From positions 166,086-230,085 of the forward strand of contig JASGUC010000003.1 of the NCBI GenBank assembly GCA_030057915.1: a DNA stretch of 64,000 bases. Reading direction: 5' to 3'. Below are positions 10,858 through 22,262 of the stretch, in pieces. The position numbers and the translations under genes are program-made. Origin of the DNA: Pseudomonadota bacterium. GTDB lineage: Bacteria; Desulfobacterota; Syntrophia; Syntrophales; UBA8958. Below the pieces are notes generated by a model. The model was given only the letters and a program-made list of their open reading frames with translations. It was not told the DNA's origin and did not search any database. The number at the start of each line of letters is the position of its first letter. Position 1 is the first letter of the stretch.

Positions 10858-11078
10858 CCGGGAGACCTTTGAAAAACGACCTATCCCGTCCATGCCGGGT
10901 TTGATCCGGCAGCCGGAGGAGAGTTGAAAACACGGGATTCCCGCTATGAGTTTGCGGGAATGACGGGGGGTGCGGGACGCCCGCCAGGAGATCGCGGGAA
11001 TGACAGGGAGGTTGCGGGACGCCCGCTTTTGGGGATATGACGTGCGGCGGTTTTTGCGGCCATTATTCAAGGGCCTCG
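10858..11078. repeat. family A repeat with REP-type hairpins
   Basis: Opens GAGACCTTTGAAAAACG and closes TTCAAGGGCCTCG. The interior contains repeated GCGGGACGCCCGC and CGGGATTCCCGC hairpin units. It is part of the 1.15-kb non-coding stretch 10514-11668, which holds only repeats. Confidence 0.65.
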
Positions 11079-11230
11079 ATGTATCTATTTCCCCTTGAGC
11101 TTTTTCTCCCCCTCTGTTAGAAATTCCCGAAAAATCGACTGCCGATTTCGGTAATCCAGACCTTTGAAAGGCCGCGCCCCCCCCTGTCGCCCCGGCGAAG
11201 GCTGGGGCCCGGAACTTCTTGGAAACACAG

Positions 11231-11640
11231 GATTCCCGCCGGGAGATTGCGGGACGCCCGCTTTTGGGGGCATGAAGCCACTTTTTGTCATCCCTGCGGG
11301 CCGCTCTTTTTTGTCATCCCCGAATGTTTTTGTCGGGGATCGCGCACTTCTTGATAGATTCCCGCCGGGAGGTTGCGGGAATGACAGGGGAGTTTCGGGA
11401 TTCCCGCCGGGAGGTTGCGGGACGCCCGCTTTCGGGGGCATGAAGCCACTTTTTGTCATCCCCACGGGCCGCTCTTTTTTGTCATCCCCGAATGTTTCTG
11501 TCGGGGATCGCCCACTTCTTGATAGATGCCCTCCGGGAGAATGCGGTAATGACGGGGAGATTGCGGGAATGACGGGGAGGTTGCGGGATTCCCGCCGGGA
11601 GATTGCGGGACGCCCGCTTTCGGGGGCCGGCCCGGCGATG
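11231..11640. repeat. tandem direct repeat, 168-bp period, upstream of ftsH
   Basis: Two long units begin near 11231 and 11399 (for example CATGAAGCCACTTTTTGTCA at 11271 and at 11439) and a partial third lies at 11579-11625. Each contains REP hairpins and GTCATCCCCGAATGTTT. Recent duplication is implied by high similarity. It ends 28 bp before the ftsH start and may affect its leader. Confidence 0.75.
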
Positions 11641-13545: not shown

Positions 13546-14991
13546 ATGCCGGCGCGCTTTTCCCAGAAAACCCTGAGCATCGCCCGGGCCCTCATCGAGT
13601 CGGTCCACGACGGGATGTTCATCGCCGATCACGAGGGCTACTTCATCATGGCCAACGAGGCCTTCGAGCGGATCACCGGGATCAATCGCCAAGAGATGAT
13701 GGACCGCCACACCCAGTACATGATCGACAACAACTGGGTTCCCGTGGCGGTGAACCTGGAAGTTCTCAAGGATTACCAGGCCCGGAGCCGCATCGTCCGC
13801 TATCCCAGCGGCCGGCAGCTCCTCGTCACGGCGGCGATGCTCTGGCGGGACAACGGCAACCCCGCCGCCGTCGTCAGCACCCTTCGGGACCTTACGGAAC
13901 TCAACCGGATCAACGAGGAGCTGAAGAACTCCCAGGTCATGATCGAACGCTTCAAGAAGCGGATCGAATACCTGGAAGAAACCCTCGGGGGCGGGGCCAA
14001 CCGCTTCTTCGTCGGCCAGAGCACGGAATTTCGACGCCTCCTGTCCATAGCCAAGAAGGTGGCCCGTTCCGACGCCACCGTCATGATCACCGGCCCCTCC
14101 GGCGTGGGCAAGGATGTCATCGCCCAGTTCATCCACCTACAGAGCCCCCGGCAGAACACCGGCGCCTTCGTGAAGGTGGACTGCGCCTCCCTTCCCGCCA
14201 ATCTCCTTGAATCGGAACTCTTCGGCTACGACAAGGGGGCCTTTACCGACGCTCGAATTCAGGGCAAGCAGGGGATGTTCGAACTCGCCAATGGCGGCAC
14301 CCTCTTTCTCGACGAGATCGGCGAATTCCCCTTCGAACTCCAGGCCAAGCTTCTCAACGTCCTTCAGGACCGGGAGATCAAGCACCTGGGCGGACTCCAG
14401 AAGATTCCCGTCGATGTCCGCATCGTCGCCGCCACCAACATGAACCTCGAGCAGATGGTCCGGGAGCGAAAATTCCGGGAGGACCTCTACTACCGCCTGA
14501 ACGTCATCCCCGTGTTCATCCCCCCCCTCCGGGAGCGACGGGAGGACATCCTCCCCATGATCAAGCACTTCCTCAAGATTTACAATCAGAACTACAACAC
14601 CGGCAAGAGCCTCTCCATCGACGCCCTGAACGCCATGTTGAACTACGAATGGCCGGGGAACGTCCGGGAACTCCGCAACGCCATCGAGCGCGTGGTCGTC
14701 ATGAGCGCCGACGAAATCATCACCCGGGACGACCTGCCCGGGGAGATCCGCAAGGCCTTCCATTTCGACGCCGCCGCCGGGGTGCGGCCGCCGGGGGGCG
14801 CCGCCGTCGCGGCCCTGGGTTCGGACGCCGCCGCCGTTCCCCTCCGGCGGGCCCTGGCCGCGGCGGAGAGGGACTTGATCAGCCACGCCCTGAAAACATC
14901 GACCACCCTCGCCGAGGCCGCCCGCCGCCTCCAGATCGACCTTTCCACCCTGACCAGGAAAAAGAAGAAATACGGCCTCATGGCGAATTGA
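13546..14991 (+). CDS. sigma-54-dependent transcriptional activator with N-terminal PAS domain
   Basis: 481 residues. A PAS sensor domain (about 8-118) and coiled linker (120-147) precede the AAA+ domain: Walker A GPSGVGKD (183-190), Walker B GTLFLDEIGE (251-260). A C-terminal Fis-type helix-turn-helix (LAEAARRLQIDLSTLTRKKK) closes the protein. The sigma-54 contact loop reads GAFTDA (231-236) instead of GAFTGA. It lies convergent to the 3' end of the beta-oxidation operon, whose promoter carries a sigma-54 site, so that operon is the likely target. PAS ligand is unknown. Confidence 0.9.
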   Translation: MPARFSQKTLSIARALIESVHDGMFIADHEGYFIMANEAFERITGINRQEMMDRHTQYMIDNNWVPVAVNLEVLKDYQARSRIVRYPSGRQLLVTAAMLWRDNGNPAAVVSTLRDLTELNRINEELKNSQVMIERFKKRIEYLEETLGGGANRFFVGQSTEFRRLLSIAKKVARSDATVMITGPSGVGKDVIAQFIHLQSPRQNTGAFVKVDCASLPANLLESELFGYDKGAFTDARIQGKQGMFELANGGTLFLDEIGEFPFELQAKLLNVLQDREIKHLGGLQKIPVDVRIVAATNMNLEQMVRERKFREDLYYRLNVIPVFIPPLRERREDILPMIKHFLKIYNQNYNTGKSLSIDALNAMLNYEWPGNVRELRNAIERVVVMSADEIITRDDLPGEIRKAFHFDAAAGVRPPGGAAVAALGSDAAAVPLRRALAAAERDLISHALKTSTTLAEAARRLQIDLSTLTRKKKKYGLMAN

Positions 14992-15128: not shown

Positions 15129-16379
15129 TTAGATCATCTCCAGGACCGTTGCCATGGAGACCCCGCCGCCGCCGCAGAGGGTGGCCATGCCCAGGGTCTT
15201 GCCGCGTTTCTTCATGGCATGGAGGAGGGTCACCATGATCCGACATCCCGTGGCGCCCACGGGGTGGCCCAAGCCGCAGCCGGAGCCGTTGACGTTGGTG
15301 ATTTCCCGGTTCAGTCCGATCTCTCGTTCACAGCCGATGTATTGGGCGGCGAAGGCCTCGTTGAGTTCGATGAGTTCGAAGTCGCCGATTTTGTAGTTCG
15401 TCCGCTCCAGCAGATTCGCCACCGCCGGGACGGGGGAGAGGCCCATCACCGAGGGGTGGCAGCCGCCGCCGCCGAACGCCTTGATCCGGGCGATGGGTTT
15501 CAGCCCCAGCTCCTTGGCCTTGTCCGCCGACATGATCAGCATGGCGGCCGCGCCGTCGTTGACCCCCGAGGAGTTGCCCGCCGTCACCTTGCCGATCTTG
15601 CCCAGGAACGCCGGGGGCAGTTTCGCCAGGTCGTCCATGGTGAGGCCGGGGCGGAAATGCTCGTCCTTGTCGAAGACCTTGGGCGGTTTGCCCTTCTTCT
15701 GGGGGAGTTCTATGGGGACGATCTCTTCCCGGAAGTCCCCCTCCACCGTGGCCCGCTCGGCATTGTTGTGGCTCCGGAGGGCGACGGCGTCGATCTCCTC
15801 CCGGGTGAGGCCGTGTTTGTAGGCGATGAGTTCCGCCGTGACCCCCATGATGTAAGGCTTGCCGCGGAACCGCTCCACGATTTCCCCTTCCTTGATGGGA
15901 CCCTGCTCCAAGCCGGGGAGGATATGCGACCCCGCATGGAGGGCGTGGATGATGTCATCCACGAAGACCTGATCCTGAAACCGACAGCCCCAGCGGGCAG
16001 TTGGCACGGAATAGGTTATCCCCGACATGTGCTCCATGCCTCCGCAGAGGGCGACGTCGTATAAACCGTTCTGGATGTAGGCCATCCCCGAGAGCACCGC
16101 CTCCATGCCGGAGATGCAGACCCGGTTGATCGTGGCCGCCATGGCGGTATCGGGGATCCCCGCCAGTAGGGCCGAGATGCGCGTGGTGTTCAGGGAATCC
16201 ACCGGCTCCCGACAGCAGCCGAAACGGACATCGGCGATGAGGGCCGGGTCGATCCCCGCCCGTTTGACCGCCTCCTTCATCACGACGCTGCCCAGGGTCG
16301 CCAGGTTCATGTCTCTCAAGGTCCCGCCGAAAGCGCCGATGGCGGTCCGGCAGGCCGATACGATCACAACTTCTTTCAT
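15129..16379 (-). CDS. thiolase (acetyl-CoA acetyltransferase family)
   Basis: 416 residues. It cleaves 3-ketoacyl-CoA with CoA to acetyl-CoA, the last beta-oxidation step. The nucleophile Cys88 is in NRVCISGMEA (family usually NRVCGSG), with the NEAFAAQ, GHPVGATG and C-terminal CGGGG blocks supplying the other catalytic residues. It is about 20 residues longer than typical. It is the last gene of the minus-strand operon, 92 bp after the acyl-CoA ligase gene. Chain-length preference cannot be read from sequence. Confidence 0.9.
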   Translation of the reverse strand: MKEVVIVSACRTAIGAFGGTLRDMNLATLGSVVMKEAVKRAGIDPALIADVRFGCCREPVDSLNTTRISALLAGIPDTAMAATINRVCISGMEAVLSGMAYIQNGLYDVALCGGMEHMSGITYSVPTARWGCRFQDQVFVDDIIHALHAGSHILPGLEQGPIKEGEIVERFRGKPYIMGVTAELIAYKHGLTREEIDAVALRSHNNAERATVEGDFREEIVPIELPQKKGKPPKVFDKDEHFRPGLTMDDLAKLPPAFLGKIGKVTAGNSSGVNDGAAAMLIMSADKAKELGLKPIARIKAFGGGGCHPSVMGLSPVPAVANLLERTNYKIGDFELIELNEAFAAQYIGCEREIGLNREITNVNGSGCGLGHPVGATGCRIMVTLLHAMKKRGKTLGMATLCGGGGVSMATVLEMI

Positions 16380-16471: not shown

Positions 16472-18118
16472 CTATTTGTCCTTGAACGATATCCGCATCT
16501 CCCGCTTCAGGATCTTGCCGGTAGGCGTCTTGGGGAGGGCGTCCACGAAGAAGACCTTCTTGGGACACTTAAACGCTGCCAGCTCCTTCCGGCAGTGGGC
16601 GATGAGTTCCTCCGCCGTCATGGTCTCGCCGGGCTTCAGGACTACCACCGCCGTCACCAGCTCCACCCACTTGGGGTCCGGCAGGCCGATGACCGCCACC
16701 TCCTGGACCCGCTTGTCCAGATAGATCGCCTCCTCCACCTCCCGGGTCGGGACGTTTTCCCCGCCCGTCTTGATCATGTCCTTCTTCCGATCGACTACGG
16801 TGATGTAGCGGTCCTCGTCCATGATCCCGATATCCCCGGAGTGGAACCAACCGCCCTTCATGGCCTCTTCCGTCTTTTCCGGATCCTTGAAGTACATGAT
16901 CAGAGCGTGGGGGCCCTTGCCGCAGATCTCCCCGGGCGCGCCGGGCTTGGCGATGGGGGTCCCGTCGTCTTCTTCCAGGCGGGTTTCCATATTGAGGCCG
17001 CCCAACCCCGCCGAACCCAGCTTGGCCAAGGCGTCCTTGGCCTTGAGGATGGTGTGGTAGGGTGCCAGTTCCGTCTGGCCGTAGTAGTTGTAAATCTTCA
17101 CGCCCGGCAGGCGTTCCATCATCTCCTTGAGGATCTCCACCGGCATGATGGAGGCCCCGTAGTAGGCCTTCTTCAGGGAGGAGAGGTCCTGTTTGGCGAA
17201 CTCCGGATGACGGAGCATGCCGATCCAGACCGTCGGGGGGGCGAAGAACATCGTGGCCTTGTAGGCGGCGATATTCTTCAGGATCTGACCGACGTCGGGC
17301 ATCATGAGGATGTTCGTCCCGCCGACCCAGAAGATGGGGTTCAGGAAGACGTCCCGCTGGGCGCAGTGATAAATCGGCAGGGCGTTGACGTTGATGTCGT
17401 CCTCGTCGTACTGGCCGTCCACAATGGCCCCCATGTACTGGGACATCAGGGCCTGGTTGCTGATGATGACGCCCTTGGGGAGCGATTCCGTGCCGCTGGT
17501 GTAGGTCATCTGGCAGGGTTCCTCGATGCGGAGGATCACGTCCGGCTCCGTATCGTCGTATTTGCCGCGCCAGGCGTCGAAGGTCTGGAACCGGTCGCTC
17601 GCCGGGGGCTGGCCCGCCACCTGGTCGGACCAGATGAAGTCCTTGACCAAGGGCATGTCGTCCATGACGTCCTTGACAAGATCATAGAGGGCATCCTCGA
17701 CGATGAAGACCTTGCTTTCCGAATGATTGATGCAATAGGAGATGTCCTTGCCCCGGAGCAGATAATTGATGGCCAGATAGATGGCGCCGATCTTCGCGCA
17801 GCCGATCCAGGTCAGGACGTGATGGATGGTATTGTGGGCCAGGATGGCCACCCGGTCGTATTTCTTCACCCCCAGGGCCGTCAGGGCGTTGGCGGTCCTG
17901 TTGCACTCCCGCTCCAGCTCGGCGTAGGTCAGGGTCTTGTCCCCATAGATCAGCGCCGGTTTGTCCGGGTAGTGATAGGCGCTCCGGCGGATCATGTCGG
18001 CGATGACCCAGCGGTTCACCCTGTTGTAGCGGTTCATCAAGAACTCCAGGTTCTCCTTGTCGATTGACTGGTAGCGAGCCTTTTCCTCTTCTGTAAGGGG
18101 CGTCCATGTCGCTGCCAT
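16472..18118 (-). CDS. acyl-CoA ligase (AMP-forming)
   Basis: 548 residues. It activates a carboxylic acid with ATP and CoA through an acyl-adenylate. Adenylate-forming motifs are present: YTSGTESLPKGV (phosphate-binding loop), YNYYGQTE, HSGDIGIMDEDRY, DRKKDMIKTGGENV and the C-terminal catalytic lysine in TGKILKREM. The start at 18118 follows AAAGGAGAG; an upstream in-frame extension lacks such support. It gives the operon an ATP-dependent entry beside the CoA-transferase. Substrate could be short, medium or aromatic acids. Confidence 0.88.
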   Translation of the reverse strand: MAATWTPLTEEEKARYQSIDKENLEFLMNRYNRVNRWVIADMIRRSAYHYPDKPALIYGDKTLTYAELERECNRTANALTALGVKKYDRVAILAHNTIHHVLTWIGCAKIGAIYLAINYLLRGKDISYCINHSESKVFIVEDALYDLVKDVMDDMPLVKDFIWSDQVAGQPPASDRFQTFDAWRGKYDDTEPDVILRIEEPCQMTYTSGTESLPKGVIISNQALMSQYMGAIVDGQYDEDDINVNALPIYHCAQRDVFLNPIFWVGGTNILMMPDVGQILKNIAAYKATMFFAPPTVWIGMLRHPEFAKQDLSSLKKAYYGASIMPVEILKEMMERLPGVKIYNYYGQTELAPYHTILKAKDALAKLGSAGLGGLNMETRLEEDDGTPIAKPGAPGEICGKGPHALIMYFKDPEKTEEAMKGGWFHSGDIGIMDEDRYITVVDRKKDMIKTGGENVPTREVEEAIYLDKRVQEVAVIGLPDPKWVELVTAVVVLKPGETMTAEELIAHCRKELAAFKCPKKVFFVDALPKTPTGKILKREMRISFKDK

Positions 18119-18219
18119 AAATTCTCTCCTTTCTTCGGTAAGGTCTTTCGTTGGTTCGACTGTTGCTGCCTGCTTGCCGCCTCTTGAAATATTGGAGGCG
18201 CCCCCCATATTGCCAAGGT

Positions 18220-19368
18220 TTATCCGAACTTTGCCATGAGATAGCGGCCGATGGTGAGGATCTCCGCTTCCTTGGTCCCCTCGTAGAGTTCGAGGATCTT
18301 GGCGTCCCGGTACCATTTCTGGACGCTGTACTCGTCGATGTAGCCGTAGCCCCCGTGGAGTTCCACGGCGTTGTTGGCGCAGAAGACCGCCGTCTGGCCG
18401 CTGTAGAACTTCGCCATCGCCGCCAGGGTGTAGTCGGGCGTCCCATTGTCAACGAGCCAGCCGGACTTGTAAACCAGGCCCCGGAGGGACTCGATCATGA
18501 TGGCCATCTCGGTGAGCTTCTTCTGGGTGAGCTGGTAGTTCCCCAGGGCGACCCCGAAGGCGGTCCGCTCCTTGCAATACTTGACCGACGTCTCCAGGCA
18601 GGCTTCGGCGAGCCCCAGACCCTGGGCGGCCACCATGATGCGGGTGGTGTCGAAGAAGTGCATGAGCTGGTAGAAGCCCCGGCCCTCCTTGCCCACCAGG
18701 TTGGCCTGGGGGACCCGTACGTCCTCGAAGGCGATCTCCGCCGTGTCGGAGGAACGAATGCCCATCTTGCCCCGGATCTTGTTCCGTGTCACGCCCTTGG
18801 CGTCGGCGGGGACGACGATGAGGCTGAAGCTGTTGTGCTTCTTCTCCTCGGGATTGGTGATGCACTGGGCGACCATGAAGTCGCAGACCGTGCCGTTGGT
18901 GATGAACATCTTGTTACCGTTGATGACGTAATCGCTCCCGTCCTTGACGGCCCGGGTCTTGTAGCCCGCCACGTCGGTGCCGGCGTTGGGCTCCGTGAAG
19001 GCCCCGGCGCTTACCCATTCCCCCCGGCAGACCGGAGGCAGATACTTCTGCTTGAGTTCTTCCGATCCGTACTGGAAGATGGACTCACAGCCGAAACAGG
19101 CCGCCACGACGTTCAGGCCGATGCCCATATCCACCTTGGAAAGCTCCTCGGTGATGATGGCGTTGCCCAGGATCCCCGCCCCGGCGCCGCCGTACTCCTC
19201 GGGGATCCAGGCCGCCACCAGGCCGTTTTCCGCCGCCTTCCTCCGGATTTCCGGGGTGTATTTCTCGTGCTCGTCGCATTCCTTGCTGAGGGATGTAAAC
19301 TCCGTCACGGCGAACTTGTAGGCCATGTCCTTCAACATCTTGAGTTCTTCGGTCAATTCGAAATCCAT
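18220..19368 (-). CDS. acyl-CoA dehydrogenase
   Basis: 382 residues, usual length for the short/medium-chain family. An FAD enzyme forming 2-enoyl-CoA and passing electrons to ETF. Visible signatures are the FAD-binding block FTEPNAGTDVAGYKT (about 126-140), RTAFGVALGNYQLTQ, the C-terminal NNAVELHGGYGYIDEY and ILELYEGTKEAE with the region holding the catalytic glutamate. AAAGGAG precedes the ATG. No etfAB genes are nearby. Confidence 0.93.
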   Translation of the reverse strand: MDFELTEELKMLKDMAYKFAVTEFTSLSKECDEHEKYTPEIRRKAAENGLVAAWIPEEYGGAGAGILGNAIITEELSKVDMGIGLNVVAACFGCESIFQYGSEELKQKYLPPVCRGEWVSAGAFTEPNAGTDVAGYKTRAVKDGSDYVINGNKMFITNGTVCDFMVAQCITNPEEKKHNSFSLIVVPADAKGVTRNKIRGKMGIRSSDTAEIAFEDVRVPQANLVGKEGRGFYQLMHFFDTTRIMVAAQGLGLAEACLETSVKYCKERTAFGVALGNYQLTQKKLTEMAIMIESLRGLVYKSGWLVDNGTPDYTLAAMAKFYSGQTAVFCANNAVELHGGYGYIDEYSVQKWYRDAKILELYEGTKEAEILTIGRYLMAKFG

Positions 19369-19463: not shown

Positions 19464-20312
19464 TCAGTAGTCGTAAACCCCCTTGCCGGTCTTGCGGCCG
19501 AAGCGGCCGGCCCGGACGAGCTTCCGAAGGAGCGGTGCGGGACGGTACTTGTCCCCCAACTCCCGGTGGAGGCCCTCGATCACCCGCAGGAGCGTCTCGT
19601 TGCCCACGAGGTCCGACAGGGCCAACGGACCGATGGGGTGGTTGCAGCCCAGGACCATGGCCTTGTCGATGTCCGCCGCCGAGGCGATCCCCTCGTCCAG
19701 GACGAAGAAGGCCTCGTTGAGCATCGTGCAGAGGATCCGGTTCACCGCGAAGGCCGGGGCTTCCTTTACCACCACGACCTCCTTGCCGATCTTCTTGCCC
19801 CAGGCCTGGGCGATAGCCACGGTCTCGTCGGAGGTTTCATGGCCCCGGATCACCTCCAGGAGCTTCATGACGGGGACGGGATTGAAGAAGTGGGTCCCGA
19901 TGAACTTGTCGGGACGATCCGTAATGGCCCCCATCTCCGTGATGCTCAGGCCGGAGGTGTTGGTGAAGAACAGACAGTCCTTGGAGACCACCGCCATCAG
20001 CTCCTTGTAAACCTGTTTCTTTACCTCCAGGACCTCGATGACCACCTCCACCACCAGGTCCGCTCCCGCCGCCGCCTCCTTCAGGTCCAGCGTCGGCTTG
20101 ATCCGTCCCAGGATGGCGTCCATGTCCTCCTTGGTTCGCTTGCCCTTTTCCACGTCCTTGGAGAGATTACGGACGATGGTCTTCATCCCCCCATCGAGGA
20201 ACCGCTGCTCGATGTCCCGGATGGCCACCTCGTAGCCCGCCTGAGCGCATACCTGGGCGATGCCGTTGCCCATGAGACCCGCTCCCAAAACGCAAATCTT
20301 CTTGATTTCCAT
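19464..20312 (-). CDS. 3-hydroxyacyl-CoA (3-hydroxybutyryl-CoA) dehydrogenase
   Basis: 282 residues, typical Hbd length. It oxidises 3-hydroxyacyl-CoA with NAD(P)+. The Rossmann nucleotide motif [11 protein letters not shown] (10-20) starts the protein. The catalytic His lies in [17 protein letters not shown] and the C-terminal domain has [12 protein letters not shown] and [11 protein letters not shown]. Strong GGAGGAG ribosome site. It is the second gene of the operon, between the CoA-transferase and acyl-CoA dehydrogenase genes. Confidence 0.93.
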
Positions 20313-20412: not shown

Positions 20413-21780
20413 TCAAATTGCCCCCAGGCGCCACTGCTTGTTTAGCCAGTGCATCTTATGCGCCTCTTCCAGCAGGCCGTCCCGGAATTCCGGATGCGCC
20501 AGCTTGACGATCGCCAGGACCCGTTCGGGGATGGAGAGGCCCTTCAGATAGGCGACGCCGTATTCCGTGACCAGATAGGACACGTCCACCCGGGGCACCG
20601 TGACGATTTCTCCCGGCGGCAGAGTCGGGTTGATCTTCGATCTCAGCTTTCCCTCCTTGTCCGTGTAGGTGGATTGGAAGGCCAGGATGGACTTGTTCTC
20701 CGGATAGCCCAGCGGCTGCTGCCCCTTGGTGGTCCGGTAGTAAGCCCCCCGGACGAAGGCCAACTGTCCCCCCGTCCCGGAATATTGGGCGAAGCCGATG
20801 GATTCGGAACTTACCTGTCCCTGAAGATCCACGCCCAGACAGGCGTTGATGGAGATCATGTCCTTGTTCATGGCGATGATGTTGGGATCGTTGGTGAATT
20901 CCACGGGATACATGGCCAGCGCCGGGTTGTGGTCGAGCCAGTCGTAGAGCCGCCGACTGCCGATGGCGAAGGCCCAGACGATCTTGCCCGGGAGGAAGGT
21001 CTTCTTCTTCCCCGTGATGAGCCCCGCGTCGTGAAGGTCCGCGATCCCCTCCGTAACCATCTCGGTATGGATGCCGATGTCCCGGGCGCCGCTGTCCGCC
21101 AGCAGGCGCAGCACCGTGTCCGGCAGGCCGCCGATCCCGATCTGGAGCGTGGGACCGTCCTTGGGTATCAACTCGGCGATGTAACCGGCGATCTCCTTGT
21201 CCGTCTCCGTGGGAGCCGGGGTGGGGATGGTGATCAGTTTGTCGGTCTTGTTCTCGATGATGTAATCGACTTCGGAAATATGAATGCATTCGTCGTAGCC
21301 GCCGTAACACCAGGGCATGTCCTCCACGACCTCGACGACGATGATCTTGGCGCGTTCGAAAACGGCCTTCTTGAAGTTGCACAGGGGGCCGAAGTTGAAG
21401 TACCCGTGCTTGTCCATGGGGGTGACGGTCTGGACGGCGATGTCCACGTCAAGGCCGTCCCGGTAATAGCGCGCCGCCTCGCCGAAATTGTAGGGGATGT
21501 GGGTTCCCCGGTTCTCGGCGATATACTTCCGCGTCCAGCCCAGGATATGCCAGTTGCCGAGCCAGAAGCTCTTCGCCTCCGGGTCCTTCTCCATGACCTC
21601 CAGGGGCGTCAGGTGGCCCAGGGCGCGGATCTTGACGTTCTTCACCTCGCCGACCCGCTGGGCCAGGGCGCGGTCAAAGGCCCGGGGCGCCTGCACCGTG
21701 CCGTAATCCACCCACATGCCGTCCCGAACGAGCGAAGCCGCCTGCTCGGGCGTGACCAACTTGTTTCCGTACTTTGACAT
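20413..21780 (-). CDS. family I CoA-transferase (acetyl-CoA hydrolase/transferase, 4HB/butyryl-CoA type)
   Basis: 455 residues. Transfers CoA between acetyl- or acyl-CoA and a free acid, saving ATP. Family blocks visible: GTVQAPRAFDRAL, QTVTPMDKHGYFNFG, LQIGIGGLPDTV, IGIHTEMVTEG, AQYSGTGGQLAFVRGAY and the C-terminal YLVTEYGVAYLKG. First gene of the beta-oxidation operon, with AAGGAGG before the ATG and a leader of about 200 nt from the predicted sigma-54 start point. Confidence 0.9.
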   Translation of the reverse strand: MSKYGNKLVTPEQAASLVRDGMWVDYGTVQAPRAFDRALAQRVGEVKNVKIRALGHLTPLEVMEKDPEAKSFWLGNWHILGWTRKYIAENRGTHIPYNFGEAARYYRDGLDVDIAVQTVTPMDKHGYFNFGPLCNFKKAVFERAKIIVVEVVEDMPWCYGGYDECIHISEVDYIIENKTDKLITIPTPAPTETDKEIAGYIAELIPKDGPTLQIGIGGLPDTVLRLLADSGARDIGIHTEMVTEGIADLHDAGLITGKKKTFLPGKIVWAFAIGSRRLYDWLDHNPALAMYPVEFTNDPNIIAMNKDMISINACLGVDLQGQVSSESIGFAQYSGTGGQLAFVRGAYYRTTKGQQPLGYPENKSILAFQSTYTDKEGKLRSKINPTLPPGEIVTVPRVDVSYLVTEYGVAYLKGLSIPERVLAIVKLAHPEFRDGLLEEAHKMHWLNKQWRLGAI

Positions 21781-22000
21781 GAAACTACCTCCTTGTATTC
21801 AGGGCGCCGGGTCTTGTCGTCACGTTTTACGGAAATAGTCCATGCCGCCGGAACCGGGACGAGCGGGAACCCAACGGGGCCGTCGGTCCCGGGAGCGTCG
21901 CCGCTCACCACCATGCCACAGAACAATCGACTTGGAAAACGTTTTATTAAAAACCGGCCCCGGATTATCACGCCTGCCATGAGGGGCGGCAATGGTCAGC

Positions 22001-22015
22001 GCAATATCCGTGCCA
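22001..22015 (-). promoter_or_regulatory. sigma-54 (-24/-12) promoter of the beta-oxidation operon
   Basis: On the minus strand the sequence is TGGCACGGATATTGC, an exact match to TGGCACG-N4-TTGC with the required spacing between GG and GC. Transcription would begin near 21989, about 209 nt before the CoA-transferase start. Sigma-54 promoters need an AAA+ activator such as the one encoded at 13546. Confidence 0.8.
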
Positions 22016-22086
22016 CGGACATGCCTGTTGCGAACATCTGTAAATACGAACGGTTATAAATTCGCTGGCGAAGGGGGTATGCAAAG

Positions 22087-22132
22087 CCGCCATATGCAAT
22101 CCTGCGCATGTATGCAGCCATGCATATGGCGG
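22087..22132. promoter_or_regulatory. inverted repeat, candidate activator binding site (UAS)
   Basis: Arms CCGCCATATGCA and TGCATATGGCGG are perfect 12-bp complements separated by 22 bp. Centre is about 95 bp upstream of the -24 element, a usual distance for sigma-54 activator sites. Alternatively it forms a hairpin after the bS22-type gene, but no T-tract follows. Confidence 0.55.
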
Positions 22133-22172: not shown

Positions 22173-22262
22173 TTACTTCTTCTTGTGACGGTTGGCCTTG
22201 AGTCTCTTTTTGTATTTATGCTTGCTGATCTTCTTTTTTCTCTTCTTTACGACACTGCCCAC
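22173..22262 (-). CDS. bS22-type (AURKAIP1/COX24 domain) small ribosomal protein, 29 aa
   Basis: Only 29 residues: MGSVVKKRKKKISKHKYKKR followed by LKANRHKKK, extremely basic. It matches the MGSVxKKRRKKMxKHKxKK pattern of the AURKAIP1/COX24 family, related to mitochondrial mS38 and mycobacterial bS22, which bind the small-subunit rRNA. Start is GTG 22260-22262 with AAAGGA 8 bases upstream. It ends before the longer C-terminal tail known in some relatives. Assignment is from recalled family motif. Confidence 0.8.
   Translation of the reverse strand: MGSVVKKRKKKISKHKYKKRLKANRHKKK

Follow-up and report, generated by a model that had tools for sequence, protein, structure and literature searches.

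How a Syntrophus-like anaerobe switches on an operon for beta-oxidation of short-chain fatty acids is the question raised by this locus. Syntrophic fatty-acid degraders operate close to thermodynamic equilibrium. The window (the whole stretch of 64,000 nucleotides analysed here) carries the operon on its minus strand and a gene for a sigma-54 activator of 481 aa, convergent to the 3' end of the operon:

Positions 20413-21780, minus strand: acetyl-CoA hydrolase/transferase family protein, first gene of the operon, butyryl-CoA:acetate CoA-transferase-like (PF02550/PF13336).
Positions 19464-20312, minus strand: 3-hydroxybutyryl-CoA dehydrogenase (PF02737/PF00725).
Positions 18220-19368, minus strand: acyl-CoA dehydrogenase (PF00441/PF02770/PF02771).
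Positions 16472-18316, minus strand: AMP-forming acyl-CoA synthetase (PF00501; NF006182 above cut-off).
Positions 15129-16379, minus strand: acetyl-CoA C-acyltransferase (thiolase; PF00108/PF02803).
Positions 13546-14991, plus strand: sigma-54 activator with PAS, AAA+ (GAFTDA) and Fis-type HTH (DLSTLTRK) domains (PF00158, PAS families, PF02954).

The CoA-transferase scored 428.9 bits against TIGR03948, below the cut-off of 674.8, and the listed start of the acyl-CoA synthetase gene overlaps the dehydrogenase gene, the true start probably being internal. Our answer is that the operon (21780-15129, minus strand) is very probably transcribed by sigma-54 from a promoter at 22015-22001 and switched on by the activator encoded at 13546-14991 through three dyads. 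In another part of the window (10924-11627), we observed diverged intergenic direct repeats, with a 168-nt pair of 90% identity and families of 73 nt and 36 nt (GGGATTCCCGCCGGGAG type).

The region upstream of the CoA-transferase gene contains the following features:

Positions 22001-22015, minus strand: predicted sigma-54 promoter, -24/-12 TGGCACG-GATA-TTGC (exact consensus; 7 orthologous operons have a -24/-12 that aligns with it).
Positions 21987-21991, minus strand: predicted transcription start (standard sigma-54 geometry places it some 12 nt past the -12 GC).
Positions 22173-22262, minus strand: bS22-like 29-codon ORF with a GTG start, MGSVVKKRKKKISKHKYKKRLKANRHKKK (30.9 bits against a cut-off of 34; kept in all same-genus relatives compared).

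The preliminary description had reported an exact TGGCACG-N4-TTGC before the CoA-transferase gene, and we found it as TGGCACGGATATTGC at 22015-22001 (minus strand), the sole exact match in the window, starting 235 bp before the CoA-transferase ATG (21780) and leaving a predicted leader of about 209 nt from the predicted start. The -24 GG and -12 GC are present at the correct spacing and are kept in orthologs. RpoN, whose absence had been named as grounds for rejecting the promoter, is encoded by one gene in the genome (PF04552, E=1e-66). Because the 2.85-Mb genome holds 5 exact matches to the consensus, and 39 sites with at most one mismatch compared with 31 for a reversed control pattern, the motif taken alone is weak evidence; what rises above chance is the conservation of the motif together with the array upstream of it, not the motif alone.

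To follow this conservation, we gathered CoA-transferase orthologs from the same genus, family and order. The -24/-12 elements were found at the equivalent place in the congeners G001, G002, G005, G006 and G007 and in the other-family genomes G013 and G032, and this conserved position supports the sigma-54 promoter that had been claimed upstream of the beta-oxidation operon. The window and the same seven genomes have in common a gapless 56-bp element (mean column identity 78%), whose start and the -24 box are separated by 109-111 bp in 8/8 cases, with a promoter-to-ATG distance of 87-235 bp. The best ungapped 56-bp identity between the window and G013 was 35, compared with a mean of 27.6 (sd 1.3, maximum 35) in 2000 Markov shuffles. 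Comparison of the relatives defined three 16-bp dyads, TATGCA-N4-TGCATA, that begin 111, 93 and 78 bp before the -24 box and form a candidate upstream activating sequence (UAS):

Positions 22111-22126, minus strand: UAS dyad 1, TATGCA-TGGC-TGCATA (12/12 matches; start 111 bp before the -24 box).
Positions 22093-22108, minus strand: UAS dyad 2, TGCGCA-GGAT-TGCATA (10/12; 93 bp upstream).
Positions 22078-22093, minus strand: UAS dyad 3, ATGGCG-GCTT-TGCATA (8/12; 78 bp upstream).

Dyad 1 is the only perfect dyad in the genome and lies 33 bp, about three helical turns, from dyad 3. Three dyads precede the sigma-54 promoter in the window, as in a NorR-like mechanism, with dyad 3 weak: its right half-site alone is strong, this half being conserved, and its offset matches that in the G051 and G064 arrays. 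Reading dyad 2 with an N6 spacer was discarded, offset scoring having placed N4 dyads at 93 bp. No consistent match to an IHF site was found in the spacer between array and promoter. At three relatives' loci (L042, L043 and L044), we also observed upstream of the CoA-transferase gene, beside the enhancer, GGGGACACCATACT...AGTATGGTGTCCCC inverted repeats, with a second copy in the leader at L044; these look like mobile REP-type elements and are absent from the window.

It is unlikely that sigma-70 does most of the transcription of this operon, from a weak promoter of its own or by read-through from the bS22-like gene, with the sigma-54 promoter playing a minor part. A sigma-70-like match (9/12) does lie at 21992-21964 (minus strand), and the bS22-like ORF, just upstream of the sigma-54 promoter, is co-directional and separated from the operon by no terminator. 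However, the count of such matches is near the shuffle rate (mean 0.4), the sigma-54 architecture is what selection preserved, and basal read-through would be compatible with sigma-54 induction.

We then considered which protein would act at the array. The preliminary description had proposed the PAS-containing protein at 13546, whose AAA+ domain (PF00158, with Walker A and Walker B) and Fis-type HTH are those of an enhancer-binding protein, and which is the only one of about 19 sigma-54 activators of this genome to be encoded in the window. Operon and activator gene are syntenic and side by side in G002 and G013, and the activator gene still adjoins the thiolase gene in G004 and G006. No array was found upstream of the CoA-transferase orthologs in G008, G051, G067, G118, G119, G152 and G153, seven genomes with no adjacent close (at least 65%) activator ortholog. 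In G152, a 54% activator homolog is located directly upstream of the CoA-transferase gene, at the contig end, and an array lies about 1.4 kb downstream of that gene. Throughout the activator family the recognition helix reads D[LI]STLTRK; the other activators examined had different recognition helices and no such arrays. The sigma-54 contact loop of the window activator reads GAFTDA, not GAFTGA, and the second Gly of this motif is D, N or S in every family member compared with Gly in 37/40 others, one of the three exceptions being a truncated family member. GAFTDA is among the variants of D. vulgaris regarded as functional (PMC4641369). The best NCBIfam profile for the activator was PrdR (407.7 bits, below the cut-off of 795), and the AtoC equivalog gave 312.4 bits (below the cut-off of 714); instead of the receiver domain and cognate kinase of AtoC, the protein has a PAS domain and no receiver. 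Comparing this PAS domain with solved structures yielded weak matches such as DcuS (E 5e-4), too little to name a ligand. As a separate observation, many distant CoA-transferase loci of Clostridia and Syntrophomonadaceae (L110, L121, L124, L127, L129, L131, L133, L136, L143, L146, L147, L149, L151, L152 and L157) turned out to have, within 10 kb, a sigma-54 activator with another recognition helix (e.g. NQSTVVRK); these loci suggest that sigma-54 control of this enzyme class is widespread.

To link array and regulator, we took the dyad TATGCA-N4-TGCATA as defined on the window operon and searched for it near divergent homologs of the activator in G051 (57%), G026 (53%), G064 (52%) and G152 (54%). 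These relatives, at 50-57% identity, adjoin different targets carrying the same array at the same distances: AtoDA-type CoA-transferase subunits in G051 and G026, and in G064 a CMD-family protein, a TRAP transporter and an FAD-linked (FAD/FeS) oxidase locus. Each of these arrays is followed by -24/-12 elements, with dyad starts 108-111, 90-93 and/or 76-78 bp upstream. Perfect dyads in the nine genomes searched were accompanied by such a sigma-54 promoter in 6/6 cases, compared with an expected rate per 240 nt of about 0.01 (at most 2 mismatches) or 0.04 (at most 3 mismatches), and 1.02 Mb of background contained zero perfect dyads. One array of G152 (C204; L214:3340-3475), with a sigma-54 promoter, has no ORF of at least 120 codons downstream on that strand, and could drive a small RNA or a small gene.

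The mean dyad score over 11 sites peaked at offsets 110, 92 and 77, and we used dyad matches at these offsets (±2) as a score for 609 distinct sigma-54-like sites. An array score of 23-33 was reached by 15 sites, all in genomes of the regulator family or upstream of the target operon, and the 594 others had a mean of 14.6 (sd 1.8, maximum 21). Because the offsets were picked after seeing the data, this result describes how well the two groups separate and cannot be read as an unbiased p-value. The window site scores 30, and no other site taken from the same genome exceeds 16. What is independent of that choice is that the dyad, taken from the CoA-transferase operon, carried over to other targets. 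Beyond the order, a search of 395 genomes of the phylum retrieved a single homolog (44%), whose recognition helix differs. Comparison across genomes thus reveals, as features of sequence, the promoter, the array, their fixed geometry and the linkage of the array to the regulator family.

That another sigma-54 activator binds a genuine promoter and array, leaving the PAS protein at 13546 to control something else, is very unlikely. About 19 candidates are available in the genome, and in G032 the array and promoter are kept in an assembly in which no activator ortholog was found, the contig ending inside the operon. Against this, the genome has only one such array, which lies within 9 kb of the 13546 gene; the array also adjoins homologs of this activator at unrelated genes in other genera, and recognition helix and site are conserved together. 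The assignment of the 13546 protein as the activator is supported by synteny, by co-occurrence and by the same sites beside distant relatives.

The same segment includes the inverted repeat that the preliminary description had placed about 95 bp further upstream:

Positions 22087-22132, no strand: inverted repeat noted earlier (12-bp perfect arms; outer part not conserved in relatives).

Its perfect 12-bp arms, CCGCCATATGCA and TGCATATGGCGG, were found at 22087-22098 and 22121-22132, centred some 95 bp from the -24 box, and the repeat extends to 19-nt arms of 84% complementarity. The upstream activator site that had been suggested is supported; the predicted operator, though, is the set of three 16-bp dyads and not the 12-bp inverted repeat, the outer CCGCC/GGCGG extension of which is not conserved in relatives. 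The preliminary description also proposed looking for the repeat before other sigma-54 promoters, and no second occurrence of the arm pair was found in the genome: a search of the genome with profile R1 recovered this site alone, and a regulon-wide repeated element was discarded, the exact arm copies elsewhere (C4, C53) not being palindromic.

The repeat might instead belong to the bS22-like gene (22262-22173, minus strand), as its intrinsic terminator or as an RNA hairpin: it lies directly downstream of that gene, and its arms could fold into a long stem. This is highly improbable: there is no T-run and a terminator scan finds none, RNA covariation is negligible with pairs that break in relatives, and the element keeps a fixed distance to the downstream -24 box and is conserved in G013 and G032, two genomes that have an acyl-CoA dehydrogenase gene at the upstream position and yielded no bS22 ORF. 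We rejected this reading on the basis of the scan, the covariation and the conservation without bS22. Chance occurrence of the promoter match and the repeat, for which five exact consensus matches in the genome and one-mismatch counts little above the reversed control would speak, is refuted by the comparative data, namely a position, 56-bp array and spacing constant in eight genomes and a clear separation from the 594 other sites.

For sigma-54 transcription of the operon under the 13546 activator, we infer the following sequence of binding, hexamer assembly and induction. Activator dimers would bind the three 16-bp dyads, located near -137, -119 and -104 relative to the start site, and three dimers would assemble an AAA+ hexamer on the array. 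Reaching over a short DNA spacer of fixed length, as NorR does, the hexamer would then contact the sigma-54 closed complex and open it. The distance of about 110 bp is fixed across diverged activators, which suggests that the DNA loop may be constrained. The PAS domain presumably gates assembly in response to a small molecule, and the inducer would most plausibly be a carboxylate or acyl-CoA of the pathway; the targets of the family (CoA-transferases, a carboxylate transporter and an FAD/FeS oxidase) suggest that the ligand is a carboxylate or the CoA ester of one.

Among known systems, NorR/norVW of E. coli is the closest in mechanism: its three enhancer sites are essential and scaffold one hexamer (PMC2941729). 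Like the window activator, NorR is a one-component protein of sensor, AAA+ and Fis domains, but it has a GAF/nitric-oxide sensor, another site and target, and a wild-type GAFTGA loop. Its G266D variant activates transcription, escaping sensor repression yet still needing the three-site enhancer DNA (PMC2941729), and G266D/N (GAFTDA/GAFTNA) corresponds to the natural loop of the window family. If the behaviour of NorR G266 carries over by analogy, the family may be naturally released from loop-targeted repression and controlled by PAS-driven enhancer assembly, with an AtoC-like half-site that arose with a different helix, an idea we put forward tentatively and with considerable doubt. These PAS activators of Syntrophales would then have a loop fixed as the GAFT[D/N/S]A type and a rigid enhancer of three dyads, and functionally equivalent CoA-transferase operons would have acquired the TATGCA half-site with a different recognition helix.

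In Clostridia, the closest system is CrbR, predicted to control crt-hbd-thl-bcd-etf with several UAS copies (PMC6615313); its gene set is near-equivalent to the window operon, but its UAS consists of TGT/ACA separated by 10-12 bp and it belongs to another phylum. PrdR, the proline reductase activator, has a TGT-ACA UAS (PMC6615313), and its target, proline reduction, is unlike the window operon. Our literature search, outside of which most subscription journals lay, found no paper on sigma-54 control in Syntrophus or of the beta-oxidation genes of syntrophs. The switch proposed here is of an ordinary kind and now well defined, its promoter, operator and activator being supported by comparative sequence data. 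It gives an exact predicted operator, a named activator and a three-site code that predicts targets in other genera, and the signal switching syntrophic short-chain acid metabolism becomes open to experiment.

AtoC/atoDAEB of E. coli, which serves the use of short-chain fatty acids, is the closest known system in target and half-site, with, as in the window, a CoA-transferase/thiolase operon under a sigma-54 promoter. The verified AtoC site is a 40-bp palindrome with half-site GCTATGCAGAAATTTGCACA (PMC3118216), which shares TATGCA/TGCATA with the window dyads; on inspection of the MG1655 sequence, the palindrome begins 121 bp before the -24 box. The two differ in number and spacing of dyads (two with a spacer of 6 for AtoC, three with a spacer of 4 in the window), in recognition helix (SRRALMYK versus DLSTLTRK) and in loop (GAFTGA versus GAFTDA), and AtoC is a two-component regulator with a receiver domain and the kinase AtoS, whereas the window activator has a PAS domain and no kinase.
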